Shown here: piece after piece, positions 5,149 through 63,038 of the stretch
Layout: every line of letters starts with the position of its first letter
Numbering within the stretch: position 1 is the stretch's first letter
Assembly (NCBI RefSeq): GCF_000833025.1
Contig: NZ_CP010817.1
Coordinates: 3,968,001-4,032,000, forward strand
From: Myroides profundi
Lineage (GTDB): Bacteria > Bacteroidota > Bacteroidia > Flavobacteriales > Flavobacteriaceae
Length of the DNA stretch: 64,000 bases
Reading direction: 5' to 3'
Translations under genes and position numbers: made by a program
The notes under the pieces: model-generated
Database searches by the model: none
What the model was told of the DNA's origin: nothing
Seen by the model: only the letters and a program-made list of their open reading frames with translations

Positions 5149-5757
5149 TTATTTTTTCTTTGGAGTAGCTTTTGCTGCTTTTGCTGCTTCTTGAGCTGCT
5201 TTCATAGCTGCACGAGAAATTCTTACTTGACAGATTACAGTGTTATCAGTGTGTAACAATTTGTAATTGTTAACAGGTACATCAGTAACATATAATTTGT
5301 TCCCCATTTCTAAGTTAGAAATGTTTACTTCTACGAAGTCAGGTAAGTTAGCTGGTAAAGCCTTAACTTTCAATTTACGTAAGTTTAGGTTTAATACCCC
5401 TCCAGCCATTACTCCTTTAGAGTTTCCAACGATTTTCACTGGAACATCTAATGTAATTTCTTTATCGTCATGTAATTGATAGAAATCGATGTGTAAGATT
5501 TTATCGCTTACTGGGTGGAATTGGATATCTTGTAAGATAGCGTTGAATTTTTTTCCACCTTCCAACTCAATTACCACTGTGTGTACGTTTGGAGTGTAAA
5601 CTAAATTTTTGAATGCTTTTTCTTCAGCAGAAAAATGCACAGCTGCTTCAGTTCCTCCGTATAACACGCAAGGTACCATTCCAGCATTACGTAAGGCTTT
5701 AGTTGATACTTTACCTACGCTTTCTCTTTCAGATCCTTTAATCGTAATTGATTTCAT
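5149..5757 (-). CDS. rplY: 50S ribosomal protein L25/general stress protein Ctc
   Basis: A 202-residue long-form L25 (TL5/CTC type) that binds 5S rRNA in the large subunit. The N-terminal L25 domain (about 1-90) begins [35 protein letters not shown]. The C-terminal CTC domain (about 95-185) contains [28 protein letters not shown] lysine/alanine-rich tail ([15 protein letters not shown]) closes it. It lies 28 nt after prs without an intervening terminator, the usual prs-rplY-pth arrangement, and ends in its own terminator. Confidence 0.95.
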
Positions 5758-5785
5758 TTAAATATATTTAAAAAATTAATAAATT

Positions 5786-6727
5786 CTAAACTACAAAAGT
5801 CTTACTAATAGACTCATTAGCATGTACATTGTGCATTACTTCTGCAAATAATGGAGCACAACTTAATACTCTTATTTTATCACAAGGCTTCTTCAAAGGA
5901 ATTGAATCTGTAACGATTAATTCTTGAATAGCTGATTGTTCTATTTTCTCATAAGCACTACCTGATAAAATAGCATGTGTACATATAGCTCTAACGCTTA
6001 ATGCTCCACGCTCCATCATCATATCAGCTGCTTTAGCTAAAGTACCTCCTGTATCAATCATATCGTCAACTAAGATTACGTTACGTCCTGTAACATCTCC
6101 TATTAACTCCATTTTATCAATAACATTAGCTTGCTTACGTTGTTTATAACAAATTACAACATCTGACTCTAAAAACTTAGAGTAAGCATAAGCTCTCTTA
6201 GATCCTCCCATATCAGGAGATGCAATTGTTAAATTATCAAGTTTTAAGCTTTTTACATAAGGTAAAAAGATTGTAGATGCATATAAATGATCTACTGGTT
6301 TTTCAAAGAATCCTTGGATTTGATCTGCATGTAAATCCATAGTCATGATACGAGTTGCCCCTGCTGATTCAAGCAATTTAGCAACTAATTTCGCTCCAAT
6401 TGGAACCCTTGGTTTGTCCTTTCTATCCTGTCTAGCCCATCCAAAATAAGGAATTACAGCCGTAATATGTCTTGCTGATGCACGTTTAGCAGCATCACAC
6501 ATTAGTAACAATTCCATCAGGTTATCTGATGACGGAAATGTAGAACATACTAAGAAAACTCTTCGTCCTCTAATTGATTCTTCAAAAGAAGGTTGAAACT
6601 CTCCATCACTGTAATGTGATAGAGTTACTTTTCCTAATTCTACTCCGTATGCTTTTGCAATTTTCTCAGCAAGCTCAACGCTCTGAGCACATGCAAAAAT
6701 CTTAGCGTCTGGTTCGAAATATGACAT
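5786..6727 (-). CDS. prs: Ribose-phosphate pyrophosphokinase
   Basis: A 313-residue PRPP synthetase: ribose 5-phosphate plus ATP gives PRPP plus AMP, feeding nucleotide, His and Trp synthesis. Visible signatures are the ATP-binding flexible loop YFGWARQDRKDKPRVPIGAKL, MDLHADQIQGFF, and the PRPP-binding loop ILVDDMIDTGGTLAKAA. The length is typical of class I enzymes. A TAAATTTG -7 element lies 56 nt upstream, divergent from the tRNA-Leu promoter. It heads a two-gene unit with rplY. Confidence 0.96.
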   Translation of the reverse strand: MSYFEPDAKIFACAQSVELAEKIAKAYGVELGKVTLSHYSDGEFQPSFEESIRGRRVFLVCSTFPSSDNLMELLLMCDAAKRASARHITAVIPYFGWARQDRKDKPRVPIGAKLVAKLLESAGATRIMTMDLHADQIQGFFEKPVDHLYASTIFLPYVKSLKLDNLTIASPDMGGSKRAYAYSKFLESDVVICYKQRKQANVIDKMELIGDVTGRNVILVDDMIDTGGTLAKAADMMMERGALSVRAICTHAILSGSAYEKIEQSAIQELIVTDSIPLKKPCDKIRVLSCAPLFAEVMHNVHANESISKTFVV

Positions 6728-53584: not shown

Positions 53585-54916
53585 TCACAACACTAAACTT
53601 ACTAGTTTCTCATTTACTTGGTCAAAGTTGAATGACGTGTATACACGGTCAAACTCTCCTTCGATTGCTTCATTCATCAGGTTACCTACACTACCTTCGT
53701 GTGTATGGTTTACCTCTTTTGACGGTTGATAAGTACCTGCCTCTATCGACAGCCCTATCTCTTTATATGCTTCTCTAAAAGGTATCCCCTTTAGTACATA
53801 GTCATTCACTACCTCAACGCTAAACAAATAGTCGTATTTCGGATCGCTTAATATCTCTTTATTCACCTCTATATTGTCCAACATCAATTTCAGAATATCT
53901 AAACATTCTTTCAATGAAGTGAAAGCTGGGAACAAGTTCTCTTTTAACAACTGAAGATCTCTGTGGTACCCAGAAGGCAAATTAGTAGTCATTAAGGCTA
54001 TTTCGTTAGGCAAGGCTTGTATCTTATTACATCTTGAACGAATAAGCTCTAGAACGTCTGGATTCTTCTTATGTGGCATAATGCTCGAACCTGTAGTCAA
54101 ATGATCTGGGAATTTGATAAAGCCCATGTTCTGACTCATATACAAGCATCCATCCATCGCGAACTTAGCTAAAGTAGCTGCAATAGCACTTAACCCTTGT
54201 GCTAAGATACGCTCTGTCTTCCCCCTGCCCATCTGTGCATAGACTACATTATAATTCATAGACTGAAAGCCTAATAAGTCTGTAGTCATCTGTCTGTTTA
54301 GTGGAAATGATGAACCATAACCTGCAGCTGAACCCAATGGGTTCTTATTCGTAACCTTCCACGCAGCTAGCATCATCTCTAAATCGTCTACAAGGCTCTC
54401 TGCATACGCCCCAAACCACAAGCCAAATGACGAAGGCATTGCGATTTGTAAATGCGTATAGCCAGGCAGTAAAACATCTTTATACTGATTACTCAATTGC
54501 TGTAGTGTATCAAATACTTCCTTCGTCTTAGTGACTATCTCCTCTATCTCATGGCGAAAATAAAGTTTAAGATCTACTAATACTTGGTCGTTTCTAGAAC
54601 GTCCTGAATGTATCTTCTTACCAGCCTCACCTATTCTCCTAGTCAATAATAACTCTACTTGAGAGTGTATGTCTTCTACATCATCTTCTATCTCGAATTG
54701 ACCAGCTAATATCTCTTGGTATATCTGTTTTAATTCTTTTTGAATAAGGACTAAGTCTTCTGACTCTAATAATCCTATACTTTCTAACATCTGTGTATGT
54801 GCTAGTGACCCCATAACGTCAAATGCCGCTAGGTTCATATCTAACACTCTATCTTGTCCTACTGTGAAGGTATCTACATTACTATCTACAGTAGTGTTTT
54901 TTTGCCATAATTTCAT
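53585..54916 (-). CDS. argH: Argininosuccinate lyase
   Basis: A 443-residue lyase of the fumarase/aspartase superfamily: argininosuccinate gives arginine plus fumarate, the last step of arginine synthesis. The signature GSSIMPHKKNPD and the other conserved blocks (SGRSRNDQV, GYTHLQIAMP, NKNPLGSAAGYGSSFPL) are intact. It is the last gene of the arginine operon; argE ends 4 nt upstream. Confidence 0.96.
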   Translation of the reverse strand: MKLWQKNTTVDSNVDTFTVGQDRVLDMNLAAFDVMGSLAHTQMLESIGLLESEDLVLIQKELKQIYQEILAGQFEIEDDVEDIHSQVELLLTRRIGEAGKKIHSGRSRNDQVLVDLKLYFRHEIEEIVTKTKEVFDTLQQLSNQYKDVLLPGYTHLQIAMPSSFGLWFGAYAESLVDDLEMMLAAWKVTNKNPLGSAAGYGSSFPLNRQMTTDLLGFQSMNYNVVYAQMGRGKTERILAQGLSAIAATLAKFAMDGCLYMSQNMGFIKFPDHLTTGSSIMPHKKNPDVLELIRSRCNKIQALPNEIALMTTNLPSGYHRDLQLLKENLFPAFTSLKECLDILKLMLDNIEVNKEILSDPKYDYLFSVEVVNDYVLKGIPFREAYKEIGLSIEAGTYQPSKEVNHTHEGSVGNLMNEAIEGEFDRVYTSFNFDQVNEKLVSLVL

Positions 54917-54919
54917 TTG

Positions 54920-55978
54920 CTACACGATTTGCGTTAACATCTCTATATACAAGGCTATTCCCTCTTCTATCTCCTTTACATAGACGAATTCGTCTGCTGT
55001 ATGTGAGCGAGCAGAGTCGCCAGGTCCACACTTAAGCGATGGAATACTTAACAAGGCTTGGTCACTCGTAGTAGGTGAGCCATAGGTCTCTCTACCTAGT
55101 GCTATACCCGCCTGTACGATAGGGTGATCTTTAGCTATAGACGAAGGCTTTAATCGAGTAGAGCGCGCATTGACCTCACAATCTACATGCTGTCTCACCA
55201 TCTCTAATACTTCTTCGTTTGTATAAGCATCTGTCACACGTACATCTACTACAAAATCACAAGTAGAAGGCACCACATTATGCTGTGTACCAGCATTGAT
55301 CATCGTTACACTCATCTTGATCGGTCCAAACTCCTCAGATACCTTAGGGAACTGATAGGTATTAAACCACTCTATATCTTTTATTGCTTTAAATATCGCA
55401 TTGTCTCCTTCATTACGCGCTGCATGTCCTGAGCGCCCATGAGCTACACAATCGAGTACCATTAGTCCACGTTCTGCTACAGCTAAGTGCATTTGTGTAG
55501 GTTCTCCTACGATAGCGAATTCTAATTCACCTAATTTAGGTATTACAAATTCTAAGCCATCATTCCCTGATATCTCTTCTTCTGCCGTAGCAGCGATACA
55601 GAAGTTATACTTCATCCCCTCTTTCTCATAGAAGTGAAGAAATGTAGCGATTAAAGAGACCAAGCACCCTCCAGCATCATTACTCCCCAATCCGAACAAC
55701 TTGCCATCTATAATCTCAGGCTTAAACGGGTCACGAGTATAGTCTTTATTTGGTCTCACGGTATCGTGGTGAGAGTTCAATAAGATTGTAGGCTTACTCG
55801 GATCATAGTGCTTATTAAACGCCCATACATTAAAAAGCTCTCGGTGAATAGCTACTCCATGAGACTCTAAAAAGTTAGCGATTAGATCAGAAGTCAAGTG
55901 CTCTTCTTTACTAAAAGATGGAGATGCTATAAGGCTTTCTAATAAAGCTATTGCCTGTTGTGATAAGTTGTCTTTCAT
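54920..55978 (-). CDS. argE: M20 metallohydrolase, N-acylornithine/N-acylcitrulline deacylase
   Basis: A 352-residue zinc peptidase-family enzyme. Metal-site segments are NSHHDTVRP, GLGSNDAGGCLVS and ATAEEEISG, then a dimerisation domain and the closing Asp/His region (SARSHTADEFV). In this operon it should remove the acyl group; because carbamoylation by ArgF' precedes deacylation in Bacteroidota, the likely substrate is N-acylcitrulline, with succinyl or acetyl undecided. It sits between argB and argH. Confidence 0.9.
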   Translation of the reverse strand: MKDNLSQQAIALLESLIASPSFSKEEHLTSDLIANFLESHGVAIHRELFNVWAFNKHYDPSKPTILLNSHHDTVRPNKDYTRDPFKPEIIDGKLFGLGSNDAGGCLVSLIATFLHFYEKEGMKYNFCIAATAEEEISGNDGLEFVIPKLGELEFAIVGEPTQMHLAVAERGLMVLDCVAHGRSGHAARNEGDNAIFKAIKDIEWFNTYQFPKVSEEFGPIKMSVTMINAGTQHNVVPSTCDFVVDVRVTDAYTNEEVLEMVRQHVDCEVNARSTRLKPSSIAKDHPIVQAGIALGRETYGSPTTSDQALLSIPSLKCGPGDSARSHTADEFVYVKEIEEGIALYIEMLTQIV

Positions 55979-56021: not shown

Positions 56022-56801
56022 TTAGAGTTGAATCGTAGTACCAGCTTTTATATCTAATAGATCTTCTGCTTTCTTGATACATACCTTATCTACTCCTTGG
56101 TTGACAGCCGCCAAAGCATTCTCTATCTTTGGCAACATACCATCAGCTATCACCCCTTGTTGTTTTAGTTGTGTAAAGTTCTCTTGATTAATGGTATTGA
56201 TCACAGAGTTCTCATCGTTAATGTCTTGCAGTACCCCTTTGCGCTCAAAGCAATATACTAAGGCTACTTTATACTTAGTAGCGAGAGCAACGGCTATATT
56301 AGAGGTAATAGTATCTGCATTGGTATTTAGTAGTTGGCCTTCCTTATCAGCCGTAATCGCAGAGAAAACAAGATTAATCCCTATCTCTAACAATTGTTGT
56401 AATCGAACCACATTCACATCGCTTGCTTCAAAGTCCCCTACATAACCATAGTCTATCGGCTCAGTAGGGCGTTTATGACTCTGTATCAGCTTAGCGTCTG
56501 CTCCTGAGATTCCCATCGCATCACAACCTCTTGCTTGAAGTTGAGCTGTGATTTGTTTGTTTATTAAACCCGCATACACCATTACAGCTATAGGCAACAT
56601 CGCTTCGTCAGTGATACGACGCCCATTGACCATCTGAGTTTCTATCCCTAACTGCGCAGCCATACGCGTAGCTAATTTACCTCCACCATGTACTAAGACC
56701 TTAGGGCCTTCTATACGAGCATAGATGTCTAAAAAAGCGTTTAACGCAGACTCGTCATCGACGATATTACCTCCTATCTTAATAACTGTAAGGCTTTGCA
56801 T
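56022..56801 (-). CDS. argB: N-acylglutamate kinase
   Basis: A 259-residue amino-acid kinase family enzyme phosphorylating N-acetyl- (or N-succinyl-) glutamate. ATP site IKIGGNIVDD and VLVHGGGKLATRMAAQLG; substrate site NGRRITDEAML; GISGADAKLI; C-terminal KIENALAAVNQGVDKVCI. It is of the short, usually arginine-insensitive class, lacking the N-terminal helix of the feedback-inhibited hexamers. Four nt separate it from argF'. Confidence 0.93.
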   Translation of the reverse strand: MQSLTVIKIGGNIVDDESALNAFLDIYARIEGPKVLVHGGGKLATRMAAQLGIETQMVNGRRITDEAMLPIAVMVYAGLINKQITAQLQARGCDAMGISGADAKLIQSHKRPTEPIDYGYVGDFEASDVNVVRLQQLLEIGINLVFSAITADKEGQLLNTNADTITSNIAVALATKYKVALVYCFERKGVLQDINDENSVINTINQENFTQLKQQGVIADGMLPKIENALAAVNQGVDKVCIKKAEDLLDIKAGTTIQL

Positions 56802-56804
56802 ATT

Positions 56805-57803
56805 TTATTGGTTTTTAAGCATTTCTTTTAATACAGCTTGTGCTGCCCATACTCTGTTTCCTGCTTCTTGGATCACGATAGCATGCTCGCTATCTAATAC
56901 TTCTGACGAGATCACTAAATCACGTCTAACAGGTAGGCAGTGCATTACTTTAGCTTGGTTGGTTGCTTCTAATTTATCAAGAGTTAACATCCAAGACTTA
57001 TCTGTACACGTTATCTGTCCGTAGTCTTCATAACTCGACCAGTTCTTTACATATACGAAGTCAGCATCTGCTAAAGCTTCATCCTGATTAGTAGTCACTG
57101 TAGCTCCTGCTGTAAACTCCTCTTTCAGCGTATAACCTTCTGGATGAGTCACTACAAAGTCTACAAGACCTTCTGCCTGAGCTCTACACATCCACTCTGC
57201 GAAAGAGTTCGGTACTGCCTGTGGAAGTGCCTTAACGTGCGGTGCCCATGTCAATACTACTTTAGGTTTTTTGCCTTGAGGTACTAATTTATCTTGTGCA
57301 GCATCATAATTATAATCGAAGTGCTCTACTATGGTGATTAAGTCTGTGAAGCTCTGTAGAGGATGTCTTGTCGCGCTCTCTAAGCTCACTACAGGTTTGC
57401 CACAGTACTTAGCGAACTTGCTAAACAATTCTTCGCTATAGTCTTCCTCAGCATCTTTTAGTCCAGGGAACGAACGAAGTCCTAATATATCACAGTACTC
57501 TCCCATCACAGCTGCAGCTTCTCTAATATGCTCTGCTGTATTTCCGTCCATCACTACGCCGTCTTTAGTCTCTAAAGCCCAACCGTCTGATGTCATATTC
57601 ATCACCATTACATTCATCCCTAAGTTAGCAGCAGCCTTCTGAGTACTCATCCTTGTACGCAAACTTGGATTTAAGAATACTAAACCTATTGTTTTGTGCT
57701 TGCCAAGAGTTTCTTCTGCAAAAGGGTTTGCCTTACACGCTAATGCGCTGTTTACTGCTTTAGATAGAGAAGGTATATCGTTAACGGAAAAAAATTGTTT
57801 CAT
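56805..57803 (-). CDS. argF': N-acylornithine carbamoyltransferase (ArgF' type)
   Basis: A 332-residue transcarbamylase. Carbamoyl-phosphate site SLRTR (47-51), HPLQSFTDL, HCLPVRRD. It is not an ordinary ornithine carbamoyltransferase: the loop WALETKDGVVMDGNTAEH (75-92) and VLTWAPH are those of N-acetyl/N-succinylornithine enzymes. At the position separating acetyl (Glu92 in Xanthomonas) from succinyl (Pro90 in Bacteroides fragilis) specificity, this protein has Ala90. The ATG at 57803 was chosen; the frame is open to 57866 but would overlap argD. Confidence 0.9.
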   Translation of the reverse strand: MKQFFSVNDIPSLSKAVNSALACKANPFAEETLGKHKTIGLVFLNPSLRTRMSTQKAAANLGMNVMVMNMTSDGWALETKDGVVMDGNTAEHIREAAAVMGEYCDILGLRSFPGLKDAEEDYSEELFSKFAKYCGKPVVSLESATRHPLQSFTDLITIVEHFDYNYDAAQDKLVPQGKKPKVVLTWAPHVKALPQAVPNSFAEWMCRAQAEGLVDFVVTHPEGYTLKEEFTAGATVTTNQDEALADADFVYVKNWSSYEDYGQITCTDKSWMLTLDKLEATNQAKVMHCLPVRRDLVISSEVLDSEHAIVIQEAGNRVWAAQAVLKEMLKNQ

Positions 57804-57816
57804 TGTAATTGTCTTT

Positions 57817-58956
57817 TTAGAATTGTTGTAATCTGTTGTTGAATTTATCCAAGAATAAATCTGCATCAGCTTGAGTCAGATTTAATGCTGGTAACAACCG
57901 AATTACATTAGGGCTTGCATTACCCGTGAAGATGTGGTCTTTCACTAATAGTTCTTTACGAACCTCTTTTAACTCAGGAGCAAGGTCTATTCCAATCATC
58001 AGTCCTTTTCCTCTTACTTCCTGTATCTTGTCTAATTTCTTTAATTCATTGATTAAGTAGTTCCCTACTTGTGCTGTATTTGCCATTAGATTGTCTTGCT
58101 TCATAACCTCTAATACAGATAGGGCTGCTGCACAAGCTAAGTGGTTTCCTCCAAAAGTAGTTCCTAACTGTCCATGCCAAGGCTTAAACTGCTCTCCTAT
58201 CGCTATCGCTCCGATAGGGAATCCATTCCCCATTCCTTTCGCCATCGTATAGATATCAGCACTCACTCCTCCGTCATTCACTGCGTAGAAAGAACCTGTA
58301 CGTCCATATCCACACTGTACTTCGTCTGCGATAAACACCGCATCGTACTGCGTAGTAAGACTTCTGATTTTCGCTAAGAAGCTATCTGTAGCTACTTGTA
58401 TTCCTCCTACACCTTGTATTCCTTCAATAATCACTGCTGTAACTTCATCACCGTAAGACGCGAAAGCTTGTTCAAGAGCTTGCTCATCGTTAAAAGGCAA
58501 GAACACAATGTTCTCTGTTTGATTGACTGGGGCAACTATCTTTGGGTTATCAGTAGCAGAAACGGCAAGAGAAGTTCTCCCGTGAAAAGCTTTATCAAAA
58601 GCGATAACTTTCTTTTTACCATTATAAAAAGAAGCTAATTTTAAAGCGTTTTCATTTGCTTCTGCTCCTGAATTACACAAAAACAATTGATAATTGTCCA
58701 ACCCAGCTACTTCCCCTAATAAGGCAGCTAATTGCTGCTGAAGAGGGATTTCTATAGAATTAGAATAAAATCCGATTTTGTTTAATTGGTCCGTTAATCT
58801 CGCTACATAGTGCGGATGAGTATGACCGATAGAGATCACAGCGTGCCCTCCATATAAGTCTAAATACTCTTGACCCTTGCTGTCATATACTCTACTCCCT
58901 AATCCTTTTACAATCTCGATAGGGTTAAGTGGGTATACATCATATAATTTCATCAT
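57817..58956 (-). CDS. argD: N-acylornithine aminotransferase
   Basis: A 379-residue class III PLP-dependent aminotransferase making N-acylornithine from the semialdehyde. LDLYGGHAVISIGHTHPHYV, the PLP-phosphate region CNSGAEANENALKLA, IIEGIQGVGGI, DEVQCGYGRTG and the Schiff-base Lys in YTMAKGMGNGFPIGA are present. Two in-frame ATGs are adjacent (58956, 58953). It lies 12 nt after argC. Confidence 0.93.
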   Translation of the reverse strand: MMKLYDVYPLNPIEIVKGLGSRVYDSKGQEYLDLYGGHAVISIGHTHPHYVARLTDQLNKIGFYSNSIEIPLQQQLAALLGEVAGLDNYQLFLCNSGAEANENALKLASFYNGKKKVIAFDKAFHGRTSLAVSATDNPKIVAPVNQTENIVFLPFNDEQALEQAFASYGDEVTAVIIEGIQGVGGIQVATDSFLAKIRSLTTQYDAVFIADEVQCGYGRTGSFYAVNDGGVSADIYTMAKGMGNGFPIGAIAIGEQFKPWHGQLGTTFGGNHLACAAALSVLEVMKQDNLMANTAQVGNYLINELKKLDKIQEVRGKGLMIGIDLAPELKEVRKELLVKDHIFTGNASPNVIRLLPALNLTQADADLFLDKFNNRLQQF

Positions 58957-58968
58957 AATAAATCGTTG

Positions 58969-59940
58969 TTAGAAAGCCGAAGCTTTTAGTTGTAAACCTG
59001 TTTTTTCGTCTAATCCGAATAGCAGGTTCATGTTTTGAACAGCTTGACCGCTTGCTCCTTTTAGTAGGTTATCTATCGCACTAGTCACTAATACATCATC
59101 TCCGTTCTTCACGATAGACACCAAGCATTTATTCGTATTTACCACTTGCTTTAGGTCAATCCCCTTTTTGCTTACGTGTGTAAATGGATGCGATGCATAA
59201 TATGTGCTGTACATCGTATAAAGCTCTTCTTCTGTCAAAGCCGATTCAAACATCACACTTGCAAAAATCCCTCTCGCAAAATCTCCTCTCTCTGGGATAA
59301 ACTTAATGTTCTGTACATAGTCAGGTTGTAGTTGTACAAGGCTTTCTCCTATCTCGCTAAGGTGTTGATGAGTGAAAGCTTTATATACGGATATATTATT
59401 CGCTCTCCAACTAAAGTGAGATGTAGTAGATAGACTCTGTCCAGCTCCTGTAGACCCTGTCAAAGCATTGATATAAATAGACTCAGGCATCTTAGCTGCA
59501 TGTGCTAAAGGCAACAAGGCTAACTGTAATGCTGTAGCAAAACAACCTGGATTAGCTATATAATTCGCTTTCTTTATCTTCTCTTTATTCAACTCTGGCA
59601 AGCCGTAAACGAACTCTCCTGCTGTATCTTTTAATCTAAAGTCTTGGCTGAGGTCTATAATCTTAATCTCCTTATCAATGTCATTCTCTGCTAAAAATAC
59701 TTTAGAATCTCCATGCCCCATACACAAAAACAATACATCAATATCCTCCATCAACACATTCGTAAAATGTAAGTCTGTATCTCCGAATAGGTCACTGTGA
59801 ATCTCATATACTGGCTTACCAGCGCTACTGTTAGAGTGTACAAAGGTGATCTCTACTGCGGGATGAGGTAAGAGAAGTCTCAACAACTCTCCTCCCGTAT
59901 AGCCAGCACCTCCAACTATTCCTGCTTTTATTGTCTGCAT
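58969..59940 (-). CDS. argC: N-acyl-gamma-glutamyl-phosphate reductase
   Basis: A 323-residue NADPH-dependent reductase. Rossmann motif GIVGGAGYTGGELLRLL at the N-terminus, catalytic Cys in ANPGCFATALQLALLPL (about residue 133), and GSTGAGQSLS. Slightly shorter than many type 1 ArgC but complete. Its start is 4 nt from the argG stop, so it is co-translated with argG. Confidence 0.94.
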   Translation of the reverse strand: MQTIKAGIVGGAGYTGGELLRLLLPHPAVEITFVHSNSSAGKPVYEIHSDLFGDTDLHFTNVLMEDIDVLFLCMGHGDSKVFLAENDIDKEIKIIDLSQDFRLKDTAGEFVYGLPELNKEKIKKANYIANPGCFATALQLALLPLAHAAKMPESIYINALTGSTGAGQSLSTTSHFSWRANNISVYKAFTHQHLSEIGESLVQLQPDYVQNIKFIPERGDFARGIFASVMFESALTEEELYTMYSTYYASHPFTHVSKKGIDLKQVVNTNKCLVSIVKNGDDVLVTSAIDNLLKGASGQAVQNMNLLFGLDEKTGLQLKASAF

Positions 59941-59944
59941 AGTT

Positions 59945-61141
59945 CTATTGGTCTTGGTTATTAACTTTGTGCCAAATCATGACTTGGTTACCAAAGATCT
60001 TAGAGAACCCTTTTACATCTTCGCCTGTCCATGCATTGTTCATCTCTCCATAGCTACCAAACTTATTAGACATTAGGTCATGCTCTGACTCTATACCTAT
60101 CACTACAAAACGATGTGGGTGTAACTCTACGATTACTTTACCACTTACGGTCTGCTGTGTACTACTCAAGAATGCTTCCATATCTCTCATTACTGGATCA
60201 TGGAACTGTCCTTCGTGTAGGTAGTTACCATAGAATGATGCTAACTGCTCTTTCCAGCTCAATTGCCACTTCGTCAACGTATGTTTCTCTAAAGTGTGGT
60301 GTGCTTTCACTAAAATAATAGGCCCTGCTGCTTCAAAACCAACTCTCCCTTTGATACCAATGATTGTGTCTCCTACGTGGATATCTCTACCGATACCGAA
60401 TGGTTGAGCTAAGTCTTGTAACTGTTGGATAACCTCAGTAGGTTTTAGTTGCTTACCATTTAAAGCTACTGGCTCACCCTTCTCAAAAGTAATCTCCACT
60501 GTCTCAGGAGTCGCTTTAGTCACTGGTGTAGGCCATGCCTCTTCTGGTAAATATAGATTAGAGGTTAGGGTTTCTTTTCCACCTACTGAAGTTCCCCATA
60601 AACCTTTATTAATTGAATATTTCGCTTTCTCTGCATTGATTTCGACACCGTGTTTTTGTAAGAACTCAATCTCTTCTTCTCTGCTTAATTTTAGATCTCT
60701 AATAGGTGTAATAATCTGTATACTAGGCACCAATATATTAAAGATCATATCAAAACGCACTTGGTCATTCCCTGCCCCTGTACTACCGTGAGCAACCGCT
60801 TCGGCACCAATCTTCTTAGCGTAATTAGCAATAGCTGTAGCCTGACATACACGTTCAGCACTTACTGATAATGGATAAGTAGCATTCTTCAATACGTTAC
60901 CAAAAATCAAGTACTTCACACTGTCATTATAGTAGTCCTCTGTCTCATCGATAGTCGTGTGAGAAGCAACTCCTAAAGCATACGCTTTCTCTTCGATAGC
61001 CTTCACTTCTGCTGCATCAAATCCACCTGTGTTTACCACTACAGAGTGTACTTCATACCCTAACTCTTCTTTTAAATAAATTACACAGAAGCTAGTGTCT
61101 AATCCTCCGCTAAATGCTAATACAACTTTCTTATTATTCAT
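59945..61141 (-). CDS. argG: Argininosuccinate synthase
   Basis: A 398-residue ATP-dependent ligase joining citrulline and aspartate. The PP-loop AFSGGLDTSFCVIYL (9-23) is intact, with AHGSTGAGNDQVRF and KYSINKGLWGTSVGGKE. It is slightly divergent from the proteobacterial form, as usual in this phylum. It follows the GNAT gene by 18 nt. Confidence 0.95.
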   Translation of the reverse strand: MNNKKVVLAFSGGLDTSFCVIYLKEELGYEVHSVVVNTGGFDAAEVKAIEEKAYALGVASHTTIDETEDYYNDSVKYLIFGNVLKNATYPLSVSAERVCQATAIANYAKKIGAEAVAHGSTGAGNDQVRFDMIFNILVPSIQIITPIRDLKLSREEEIEFLQKHGVEINAEKAKYSINKGLWGTSVGGKETLTSNLYLPEEAWPTPVTKATPETVEITFEKGEPVALNGKQLKPTEVIQQLQDLAQPFGIGRDIHVGDTIIGIKGRVGFEAAGPIILVKAHHTLEKHTLTKWQLSWKEQLASFYGNYLHEGQFHDPVMRDMEAFLSSTQQTVSGKVIVELHPHRFVVIGIESEHDLMSNKFGSYGEMNNAWTGEDVKGFSKIFGNQVMIWHKVNNQDQ

Positions 61142-61159: not shown

Positions 61160-61840
61160 TTAAAATAGATGTGTTTTTTTGACTGTTTTCTTCAATTGCA
61201 TTTGCAATCGTTTCAGCAATGAGTACTTTTTCTGCATATTTTTAAGTCTCTCTTTTGCTTTGGTCTTTTGGTCTATTTTATTCCGAAGCTCTTTTTCTTT
61301 ATCTTCTGGGTTCCAAAGCATGGCTGTACAAAGACAGTTCTTCTTCTCTTTGCTCTGTAAGATTTGGAAGTTTACACAACTCTCACACCCTTTCCAGAAC
61401 ATCTCATCCTGAGTAAGTTCTGAGTAAGGCACAGGCTCATAGCCTAAATCTGAGTTGATCTTCATAACAGCAAACCCTGTAGTTAGACCGAATATTTTAG
61501 CCTTTGGATATTTCTTTCTAGATAATTCAAAAACACATTTTTTAATAGCTTTTGCCAGTCCCTCTTTTCTAAAAACAGGATTAACAATCAGTCCAGAATT
61601 GGCTACATAATCACCGTGACTCCAAGTCTCTATGTAACAAAAACCAGCCCAAGTACCATCAATATGTAGGGCGATAACAGCCTTACCTTCAACCATTTTA
61701 TTGGCAACGTACTCTGGTTTTCTTCTAGCAATACCAGTCCCTCTAGCAAGAGCTGACTGAGCCATTTCTTCACAAATTTGTTCCGCATATCCTACGTGTG
61801 TTTCATTCGCAGGAATTACGATAAACTGATTTGAATTCAT
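61160..61840 (-). CDS. GNAT N-acyltransferase, candidate N-acylglutamate synthase
   Basis: A 226-residue protein opening the arginine operon. The GNAT fold spans about 5-145: AVIALHIDGTWAGFCYIETW, then SGLIVNPVFRKEGLAKAIKKCVFE, whose RKEGLA is the acyl-CoA pyrophosphate loop. After it comes a Cys cluster, C152-X2-C155-X13-C169-X-C171, and a very basic helical tail (about 180-226). The window has no other gene for the first committed step (ArgA or ArgJ). In Bacteroides an orthologous position is held by a proposed N-succinylglutamate synthase (BT3761, from memory), so the same role is inferred here. Confidence 0.75.
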   Translation of the reverse strand: MNSNQFIVIPANETHVGYAEQICEEMAQSALARGTGIARRKPEYVANKMVEGKAVIALHIDGTWAGFCYIETWSHGDYVANSGLIVNPVFRKEGLAKAIKKCVFELSRKKYPKAKIFGLTTGFAVMKINSDLGYEPVPYSELTQDEMFWKGCESCVNFQILQSKEKKNCLCTAMLWNPEDKEKELRNKIDQKTKAKERLKNMQKKYSLLKRLQMQLKKTVKKTHLF

Positions 61841-61904
61841 TTCAAAACAAGTGATTAAGAATCAAACGAGCCAAGATATTGATACCGAATAGGTACAATC
61901 ATCC

Positions 61905-61917
61905 TCAGACTGTCTGA
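61905..61917. promoter_or_regulatory. 13-bp palindrome in the arginine leader
   Basis: TCAGACTGTCTGA, perfectly palindromic around one base, about 65 nt before the GNAT start. It could be an operator or an RNA element; no known regulator is assigned. Confidence 0.4.
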
Positions 61918-61949
61918 AAAGCATTAAAAATCAATGATATATGTACAGA

Positions 61950-61973
61950 TATAATGCCAAAAAAGGCATTATA
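61950..61973 (-). promoter_or_regulatory. Second leader hairpin, possible antiterminator partner
   Basis: TATAATGCC/GGCATTATA form a perfect 9-bp stem with a loop of six. On the minus strand the 3' arm GCATTA can alternatively pair with TAATGC at 61921-61926, which is followed by TTTT. The two pairings exclude each other. Confidence 0.5.
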
Positions 61974-61975
61974 CT

Positions 61976-62002
61976 AAAAAAAGGCTAAAAAAGATTAAGC
62001 CC
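61976..62002 (-). terminator. Attenuator-like terminator overlapping the leader ORF stop
   Basis: On the minus strand GGGCT (61998-62002) pairs with AGCCT (61982-61986) across an 11-nt loop and is followed by seven T. The 5' arm is made of the last codons of the leader ORF. The stem is only 5 bp, so it is weak as a plain terminator. Confidence 0.5.
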
Positions 62003-62102
62003 GGGCGCGAGATGACCGCGATGTAGACAATGAGAAAACCGCAACAGTTGCTAAGGCAATGTTGTTAGAGATAAAAGTAATATTTAAATCGGTTCTCTTC
62101 AT
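61995..62102 (-). CDS. Arginine operon leader peptide (35 aa)
   Basis: ATG at 62102, TAA at 61995-61997. The peptide starts MKRTDLN, has a mildly hydrophobic middle and ends STSRSSRARA. The final Arg codons are CGG (29), CGC (32) and CGG (34), unlike the AGA and CGT that dominate neighbouring genes; the last 25 nt are locally very GC-rich in an AT-rich region. A near-consensus promoter lies 31 nt upstream and a short stem with a T-run starts at its stop. It lies about 155 nt before the first structural gene of the arginine operon. A Trp-type attenuation leader is inferred. Confidence 0.65.
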   Translation of the reverse strand: MKRTDLNITFISNNIALATVAVFSLSTSRSSRARA

Positions 62103-62132
62103 AAGTTTTATAACTGCTTAAATAAGCATGAA

Positions 62133-62164
62133 CAAAGTTTTCTAATTAAAATTGGATTATGCAA
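62133..62164 (-). promoter_or_regulatory. Likely promoter of the arginine operon
   Basis: Minus strand: TTG (62162-62164), about 21 nt spacer, then AAACTTTG (62133-62140), one base from TAnnTTTG. It would start transcription about 25 nt before the leader ATG. Confidence 0.5.
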
Positions 62165-62454
62165 GGTTTTTATTAAAAAAATAAAACATCGCTCAATACC
62201 TTATATACTAAGAGTTTGACAGTATTTGAATCAAAATATTTTTAGTTCATTTTACCTAATAGTTCATTTTGAACGTCATTTCTGCACTCTCCCTTTATTT
62301 AAAATAGGATATAAACCACCATTAAAAAGGGTGTTTTATTCTCTAAATAAACGCTATAAAAACATTGTTTTCACCTCTAATATTGAACTCAATTATCCTA
62401 TAATAACGGTGATAAAATGGATTAAAAAAGAGGAATTATTCTCTCCTTAGACAA

Positions 62455-62505
62455 TAAAAAAAGCCCTATTCAATGTCTCTTATAATAAGACACTGAATAG
62501 GGCTA
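62455..62505 (-). terminator. Terminator of apt
   Basis: On the minus strand AGCCCTATTCA pairs with TGAATAGGGCT, extended inward by GTGTCTTA/TAAGAGACAT-type pairs, then seven T. It lies about 20 nt after the apt stop. Confidence 0.88.
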
Positions 62506-62525
62506 TAAGTATGTTTTTTACTGTA

Positions 62526-63038
62526 TTAGTAGCTAATTAAGCTTTTCACGTCATAATTAGATAACTTATCTCTTCCGTGTAAGAATGATAGTTCCATTAA
62601 GAAGTTTACTTGTACTATCTCACCTCCTAAACGCTCTACAAGCTTACATACAGCCTCTGCTGTACCTCCTGTAGCTAATACGTCATCATGGATTAATACC
62701 TTCTCTCCTGGCTTAATCGAATCAGTATGTATCTCTAGGATATCTGTTCCGTACTCTAATCCATACGCTTCAGATATCGTGTCAAAAGGAAGTTTACCTG
62801 GTTTACGCACAGGAATAAATCCTGCTCCAAGCTTCTCTGCTAACAAAGTAGCAAAAAAGTAACCTCTACTCTCCATCCCTACTACTCTATCAATCTTCTT
62901 ATCACCTACTAATGCTAATAACTGATTAGTAGCTTCTACCATAGCTGCATGGTCATTTAATAATGGAGTGATATCTTTAAAACCAATACCTTCCTTCGGA
63001 AAATCTTGAATATCTCTAATATAATCTGCTATGTTCAT
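62526..63038 (-). CDS. apt: Adenine phosphoribosyltransferase
   Basis: A 170-residue purine-salvage enzyme: adenine plus PRPP gives AMP. YIRDIQDFPKEGIGFKDITPLL at the N-terminus, GMESRGYFFATLLAEKLGAGFIPVRKPGKLP, and the PRPP loop VLIHDDVLATGGTAEA are complete. The ATG at 63038 is used; the TTG at 63044 would add only two residues. It follows the glycosyltransferase gene by 29 nt on the same strand. Confidence 0.96.
   Translation of the reverse strand: MNIADYIRDIQDFPKEGIGFKDITPLLNDHAAMVEATNQLLALVGDKKIDRVVGMESRGYFFATLLAEKLGAGFIPVRKPGKLPFDTISEAYGLEYGTDILEIHTDSIKPGEKVLIHDDVLATGGTAEAVCKLVERLGGEIVQVNFLMELSFLHGRDKLSNYDVKSLISY

Follow-up and report, generated by a model that had tools for sequence, protein, structure and literature searches.

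The arginine operon of Myroides profundi is preceded by a short open reading frame (ORF) that ends in arginine codons. Very likely, this ORF encodes a leader peptide that acts in cis as an arginine sensor and controls the eight-gene operon. The leader recurs before the same genes across many related bacteria, which suggests that the cell probably senses arginine by the speed at which ribosomes read the leader ORF.

The leader ORF, its predicted promoter and the operon behind it

The window, by which we mean the whole stretch of DNA analysed, is 64,000 nt of M. profundi sequence (GCF_000833025.1, NZ_CP010817.1:3,968,001-4,032,000). A preliminary description had reported a 35-codon ORF with the C-terminus STSRSSRARA and with CGG, CGC and CGG as its last Arg codons, and this ORF was found as described on the minus strand. 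The three codons, CGG at 62018-62016, CGC at 62009-62007 and CGG at 62003-62001, are codons 29, 32 and 34 of the leader. The same description had called these codons rare, and CGG indeed accounted for just 5/597 Arg codons in the 49 window ORFs that reach 150 aa and were treated as genes. It had also placed the first operon gene about 155 nt downstream, and the distance from the leader stop codon measured 154 nt. The leader and the genes that follow it are listed below.

61995-62102, minus strand: leader peptide ORF, ATG start, 35 codons, from the ORF call and conservation in relatives
61160-61840, minus strand: GNAT-like protein, first operon gene, candidate N-acetylglutamate synthase
59945-61141, minus strand: argG, argininosuccinate synthase (NCBIfam TIGR00032, above cut-off)
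58969-59940, minus strand: argC, N-acetyl-gamma-glutamyl-phosphate reductase (NCBIfam TIGR01850, above cut-off)
57817-58956, minus strand: argD-like acetylornithine aminotransferase (best match TIGR00707, below cut-off)
56805-57866, minus strand: N-acetylornithine carbamoyltransferase-like gene (best match NF003384, below cut-off)
56022-56801, minus strand: argB-like acetylglutamate kinase (named by eye from its translation)
54920-55978, minus strand: argE-like deacetylase (named by eye)
53585-54916, minus strand: argH-like argininosuccinate lyase (named by eye)

The operon behind the leader thus has eight genes and arginine as its product, with argG and argC identified above cut-off, two more by best match and three by eye. 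The GNAT-like protein had no match in Pfam or NCBIfam; it heads a complete arginine operon and may therefore be the N-acetylglutamate synthase. Its association with argG was regular, since argG lay at most 1.5 kb downstream of the GNAT gene in all but L108 among the 48 loci showing it and in 41/42 loci of another set. The leader peptide itself had no match in NCBIfam, and Rfam returned nothing above gathering score for window positions 61500-62800. The HIRRT core motif of the speF/orf34 leader (DUF2618; PMC6386406) was absent from the window leader peptide.

Two features were predicted upstream of the leader start codon.

62133-62164, minus strand: predicted Bacteroidota-type promoter, TTG at 62164-62162, then 21 nt, then AAACTTTG at 62140-62133 (alignment of 19 loci by eye)
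62115-62128, minus strand: 5'-end hairpin UGCUU..AAGCA, before the leader start codon (RNA fold)

A near-consensus promoter had been claimed just upstream of the leader. There is a promoter-like site there; its resemblance is to the Bacteroidota type, and a scan for sigma-70 promoters gave no site at that place. The looser box WAnnTTTG was found, by an uncontrolled count, 23-32 nt before the ATG in 19/19 loci of the window clade, the window included, and the strict box TAnnTTTG in only 1/19. The Bacteroidota promoter box lies at -12 to -5 (PMC9723704), and on this basis transcription was predicted to start near 62128, giving the window a 5' leader of ~26 nt that would open with the hairpin. 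By eye, the alignment rows of many relatives have differing yet self-complementary sequences at the place of this hairpin. Further upstream, apt is followed by a strong intrinsic terminator (62462-62504), which separates it from the leader promoter.

The genome's tRNA-Arg genes have the anticodons ACG (2), UCU (3) and UCG (1). No tRNA-Arg(CCG) gene was found among 101 tRNA matches, for which 150 of 366 candidates were scored and one weak match was left untyped. A tRNA with the anticodon UCG reads CGG by wobble. Together, these points suggest that CGG is left to the single tRNA-Arg(UCG) gene. In theory, the sensitivity of an attenuator depends on the supply of an isoacceptor relative to the use of its codon (PMC1183508), and in Salmonella speF both rare and frequent Arg codons are functional (PMC6386406).

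A His-codon leader, MYPSQLHHHHHSTCTLTSW, was also seen upstream of hisG in the same genome (G000:C1, ~2880349-2880408, minus strand; locus L253), and indicates that this genome uses leader peptides. It is followed by an 11-pair stem, then five U, G and five U, a far stronger terminator than the stem of the window leader would be. Upstream of the two homoserine dehydrogenase genes no Thr-rich ATG leader was seen.

Conservation near the window, RNA structure and the proposed output of the leader

The GNAT gene was found in 31/60 relatives, and 30 returned loci, the window's own among them, were examined. A wider draw found the gene in 241/398 genomes of the same genus label and added 27 new loci from the best 30. 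An ORF at the same place was found in 18 close relatives (L004, L005 and L113-L128), in most of them with Arg at fixed spacing. Their peptides end in SRVSRVRA, SRSSRSRA, SRTPRSRA, LRQSRIRA or LRTLRIRG; L127 and L128 have an identical leader peptide, and in L125 the last Arg is lost. In L126 the Arg residues are encoded by AGG, which indicates that the kept feature is arginine and not a stretch of DNA. The pN/pS of the leader in the window clade was 0.75 overall and 0.51 over the last nine codons, so that constraint on the leader peptide as a protein is weak. Related GNAT-argG loci share both features, a short ORF with Arg codons at its C-terminus and, as described below, a stem at its end. Twelve further loci with the window's genus label (L129-L139 and L006) have argG beside the GNAT gene, and no Arg leader was found in them; in three of these (L135, L137 and L138) there are strong hairpins of terminator-like form, 178-245 nt upstream.

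Two hairpins were located at the end of the leader ORF and directly after it.

61982-62002, minus strand: hairpin I, GGGCU/AGCCU, round the stop codon, then U61981-61976
61949-61974, minus strand: hairpin II, GUAUAAUGCC/GGCAUUAUAU, 10 pairs, six-U loop, with no U tract after it in the window

Hairpin I is the GGGCT/AGCCT stem of the preliminary description, with GGGCU at 62002-61998 and AGCCU at 61986-61982; the run of seven U reported to follow it exists, but includes the U at 61982, which is paired, besides six unpaired ones. Its 5' arm and loop hold the last Arg codon and the stop codon. Compared with shuffles of single bases in the downstream part, hairpin I had z = -2.78 in the window, and the mean z was -2.5 over 19 loci including the window. 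Paired changes (GGGCA/UGCCU and GGGGA/UCCCC) and shifted forms (GCUUAA/UUAAGC) were observed among the relatives, with a different register in L126-L128. The stop-codon stem is real and covarying. Hairpin II, stronger than hairpin I and equally conserved, follows it in the 19 loci, although the sequences of its stem are unrelated among them.

The stretches before and after the stop codon paired better within than between loci (t = -5.5, n = 142 distinct ORFs, which were picked by rule and surely include some chance ORFs). A pooled test for antiterminator pairing gave no signal (z = 0.10; single lineages may differ). RNAalifold on MAFFT alignments returned no structure for the window clade and little for core Flavobacterium or for the family-wide element described below, in our view because the stems vary in sequence and loop length.

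We propose that the leader ORF is translated while it is being transcribed. When charged tRNA-Arg is scarce, ribosomes would stall at the Arg codons just upstream of the stop codon; an ample supply of arginine would let them run on to the stop codon and release. The position of the ribosome would set whether hairpin I folds, and with it whether the transcript continues into the operon, which gives the predicted direction of control by the leader. If a ribosome is assumed to span the 16 nt that precede the first base of its A-site codon and the 12 nt that follow this base, hairpin I stays free when the stall is at codon 29 and is covered when the ribosome is at codon 32, codon 34 or the stop codon. 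Hairpin I could therefore report ribosome position, and a ribosome at Arg codons 32 or 34, but not 29, would disrupt it as in the attenuators of amino-acid operons. We consider it fairly likely that the output is premature transcription termination, with three candidates for its cause: hairpin I and the U run behind it, hairpin II, or Rho.

Alternatively, the Arg leader may do without an intrinsic terminator and use Rho-dependent termination, mRNA decay or the translation of the first gene instead, which we regard as a tentative but serious possibility. The window leader has no strong intrinsic terminator, and the excess of intrinsic-terminator-like sites across loci was weak (40/72 loci versus 22.3 expected, some of them probably from upstream genes). 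Two known Arg-codon leaders work in this way (PMC6386406; PMC13009471). This alternative is at odds with the U-rich stretch found after hairpin II in L123, L125 and, less clearly, L126, and with the terminator-like hairpin and U tract close before the gene in L101, L111 and L255.

The preliminary description had instead taken hairpin I and its U run to be an intrinsic terminator, with a ribosome stalled at the Arg codons masking the 5' arm and so allowing read-through. The Arg-codon leader before an arginine operon, on which that proposal was built, is supported, but the stem is not established as a terminator, and we find this mechanism doubtful. In its favour are the conservation and covariation of the stem, the U-rich run behind it in most close relatives and the masking expected from stalls at codons 32 and 34. 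However, the energy of the stem is just -5.7 kcal/mol, a stall at codon 29 leaves it unmasked, and it would be masked just as well by a ribosome that has reached the stop codon. The U run is moreover so near the stop codon that a ribosome trailing close behind RNA polymerase would also cover the hairpin, and the his leader of the same genome, with its 11-pair stem and two runs of five U, has what hairpin I lacks in strength.

Tandem leaders, core Flavobacterium leaders and tests against chance

A number of Flavobacteriaceae have one ORF near the promoter (ORF1) and another nearer the GNAT gene (ORF2). Two tandem Arg-ending leader ORFs were found in L072, L075, L078, L081, L082, L086, L092, L152, L153, L155, L157 and L328, the second often without an ATG. 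The Arg-rich end of ORF2 sits within a hairpin, CGCCC-NNNN-GGGUG, and a second hairpin, GGAAC..AGGUGNGUCC..GUUCC, carries a conserved AGGUGNGUCC; the Arg codons of this family-wide element are mostly CGY. Rfam gave no match to the element in five loci that carry it. Over 15 loci the sole Rfam match above gathering score was Flavo-1 in L064, at 5373-5291 on the other strand and outside the leader at 5704-5811.

The element was seen in 28 of the loci L061-L102 (alignment A2) and in L152-L181. A covariance model, R1, was built from 28 sequences. R1 gave one match each in 12/18 genomes and none in the other six; training sequences had come from 11 of these 12, the exception being G083. It matched 96/149 Flavobacteriaceae genomes, in single copy except in G531 (twice), the weakest match, in G514, being partial. 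In the window's genome R1 had no match. Among the best 30 of the 96 matches, the GNAT gene and argG lay downstream in 29, and L170 was not parsed. Pair counts on alignment A2 were unconvincing, as the covariation score was reached in 48/500 shuffles and also with slid versions.

The Arg frame reached a stop codon within six codons in 53/56 distinct elements, compared to 8 and 3 in the other frames, which favours translation of ORF2. The stop position within the element hairpin differed among elements. Lack of translation for want of an ATG was considered and rejected, since 18/18 ATG-less elements have an in-frame TTG or GTG. Fifteen of these 18 have the Arg-frame stop within six codons, and in nine the start lies 26-29 codons upstream of the CGN codon of the hairpin (an uncontrolled count, from the most upstream start listed).

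Could the conserved thing be a structured RNA, such as a riboswitch or a protein site, with the Arg-rich frame a mere by-product? The RNA structure round the stop codon, the conserved AGGUGNGUCC and the preference for CGY would all fit such an RNA. Nevertheless, it is very improbable: Arg is kept through AGG or AGA codons in L126 and also in the leaders of L068, L080, L104, L105 and L107, the Arg-frame stop is kept in 53/56 elements at differing positions in the hairpin, and the Arg-rich end persists across the class despite unrelated hairpin sequences.

The leaders of 40 core Flavobacterium loci (some genomes counted twice) belong to the type MNKTSLHITSLSRTNRPSTSPEVRILSL. CGG stands at codons 13 and 24 in 29/29 distinct 28-codon ORFs of this type, and CGG makes up 10/299 Arg codons in the GNAT genes of core Flavobacterium and window-clade loci. 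Between the end of the box TAnnTTTG and the ATG there are exactly 5 nt in 32/40 core loci and 4-6 nt in 38/40, and the box was present in 19/320 control blocks of 60 nt. Given a box position of -12 to -5 (PMC9723704), the leader mRNA of core Flavobacterium would start ~1 nt before the start codon. Throughout the 40 core loci, which lie between L009 and L058, the leader start codon was predicted to be a few nt from the transcription start.

Some further structure was noted by eye in this genus. In core loci such as L040, the leader codons for TSPEV form a hairpin, UACUUC-UCCC-GAAGUA, directly before the second CGG, and L016, L019, L023 and L047 have UACCUC/GAGGUA, a paired change of this hairpin. 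The Flavobacterium loci L007, L012, L024, L026, L059 and L060 have a second frame that ends in RP*. A CCGUAAGG hairpin was seen in L012, L024, L026 and L060, and a later hairpin has the loop region UCCGC (L007, L024 and L026) or UCCGU (L012 and L060).

The pN/pS of the core Flavobacterium leader was 0.99. This value bears on whether the leader ORF encodes a small protein with a function of its own, as its conserved position and length within clades could suggest. Such a protein is hardly credible, because residues other than Arg vary freely between clades, pN/pS ranges from 0.75 to 0.99 and NCBIfam has no match.

Enrichment of Arg was assessed by taking the best 10-50-codon ATG ORF within 420 nt upstream of each GNAT gene and counting Arg in its last 12 codons. 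The 136 loci include duplicate genomes (they come from two collections, and L020 and L034 look identical), and 73 non-redundant loci were used for the enrichment tests; L071 was left out of one locus set as no start was found. Across the 73 loci the mean number of Arg was 2.82 at the ends of upstream ORFs, compared to 0.84 in dinucleotide shuffles (t = 9.7). The next-enriched residues were Pro (1.25 versus 0.69, t = 5.6) and Val (t = 2.3). At least three Arg were found in 42/73 loci; for other genes taken from these loci the count was 7/112 (Fisher p = 8e-15).

A class-wide draw found the GNAT gene in 88/247 genomes including the window's, and 85 of the 87 others were taken. With ORFs of up to 60 codons allowed, nine of these 85 loci were dropped as no ATG was found and 76 were readable, of which 44 had at least three Arg versus 5.9 expected; this count scored L262 and L263 as leaderless from a wrong start, and an earlier listing shows a leader in both. 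Elsewhere in Bacteroidota the leaders end in RRRP, RRPLGV, RRPILPRA, RRRVFIPRV and similar sequences.

Under a two-Arg rule, 88/136 loci passed. By hand count, the 48 that failed comprise 27 of the core Flavobacterium type, three with Arg-ending frames outside the rule (L061, L069 and L076) and 18 with none. These 18 loci in which no leader was found are L006, L008, L013, L036, L096, L097, L108 and L129-L139, and 12 of them bear the window's genus label. Although short ORFs are common and 7/112 other genes also reach three Arg, a chance ORF with chance Arg codons is refuted by the conservation of the ORF, the Arg enrichment and the retention of the Arg-frame stop; judged on these sequence comparisons, the window leader ORF is not a product of chance.

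Known leaders, ArgR and the meaning of the Arg-codon leader

The textbook amino-acid attenuators are those of trp, his, leu, ilv, thr and phe, and arginine synthesis is a textbook case of control by a repressor. Like the trp, his, leu and thr attenuators, the window leader is a short ORF in which codons for the operon's product abound, with a hairpin at its stop codon and a further hairpin before a biosynthetic operon. Unlike them, its amino acid is arginine, no antiterminator was found and the window has no strong terminator. Two more differences are the core Flavobacterium start codon, predicted at the 5' end of the mRNA, and the tandem leaders in a number of genera. The Lyubetsky group reportedly made earlier predictions of classical attenuation in Bacteroidetes.

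Two known leaders resemble the window leader in their use of Arg codons. The Salmonella speF leader orf34 is likewise a short Arg-codon ORF whose translation rate controls the downstream gene, but that gene is ornithine decarboxylase, control runs through Rho, translation and RNase G, and both phylum and peptide differ (PMC6386406). In S. aureus, the rare Arg codons of the leader ORF rbfL similarly sense arginine limitation; unlike the window leader, rbfL acts on a biofilm regulator, whose ribosome-binding site it covers (PMC13009471). Closer to the window, leader-peptide attenuation was proposed for amino-acid operons of Flavobacterium psychrophilum, a member of the same family, and arginine is not named in the available text, its supplementary tables aside (PMC9723704). 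Leader-like small ORFs are mentioned for B. thetaiotaomicron (PMC7366714), and the available parts of PMC4833913 and PMC8632094 name no such Arg leader. Searches of the open-access literature, as far as its texts were available, brought up no recognisable description of Arg-codon leaders that control arginine synthesis in Bacteroidota.

ArgR repression does the same job, arginine-dependent control, but by a protein repressor, and a search of the window's genome for ArgR (PF01316) did not find it. Among 60 relatives none had a PF01316 match above cut-off and one (G008) had a match below it; search controls with a match include Bacteroides ihuae. ArgR was present in 1/36 searched genomes of named loci, namely that of L097, a locus itself without a leader. 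L096 and L108 have neither leader nor ArgR, which suggests that the two are no simple substitutes for each other.

A broader proposal is that, in the class Bacteroidia, Arg-codon leaders are the main means of controlling arginine synthesis and take the place of ArgR. Many Flavobacteriaceae would combine a tandem pair of leaders with a new structured RNA present in single copy, the core Flavobacterium leader would start at the 5' end of the mRNA, and arginine would be sensed twice per transcript without a classical antiterminator. We consider this broader proposal quite possible, if not yet probable. A class-wide Arg-codon leader, if true, would explain how the arginine pathway is controlled in bacteria without ArgR. 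Bacteroidota ribosomes are not known to rely on Shine-Dalgarno pairing, and the finding would show leader-peptide control in such a phylum. The family-wide element would be a single-copy RNA testable in many genera.
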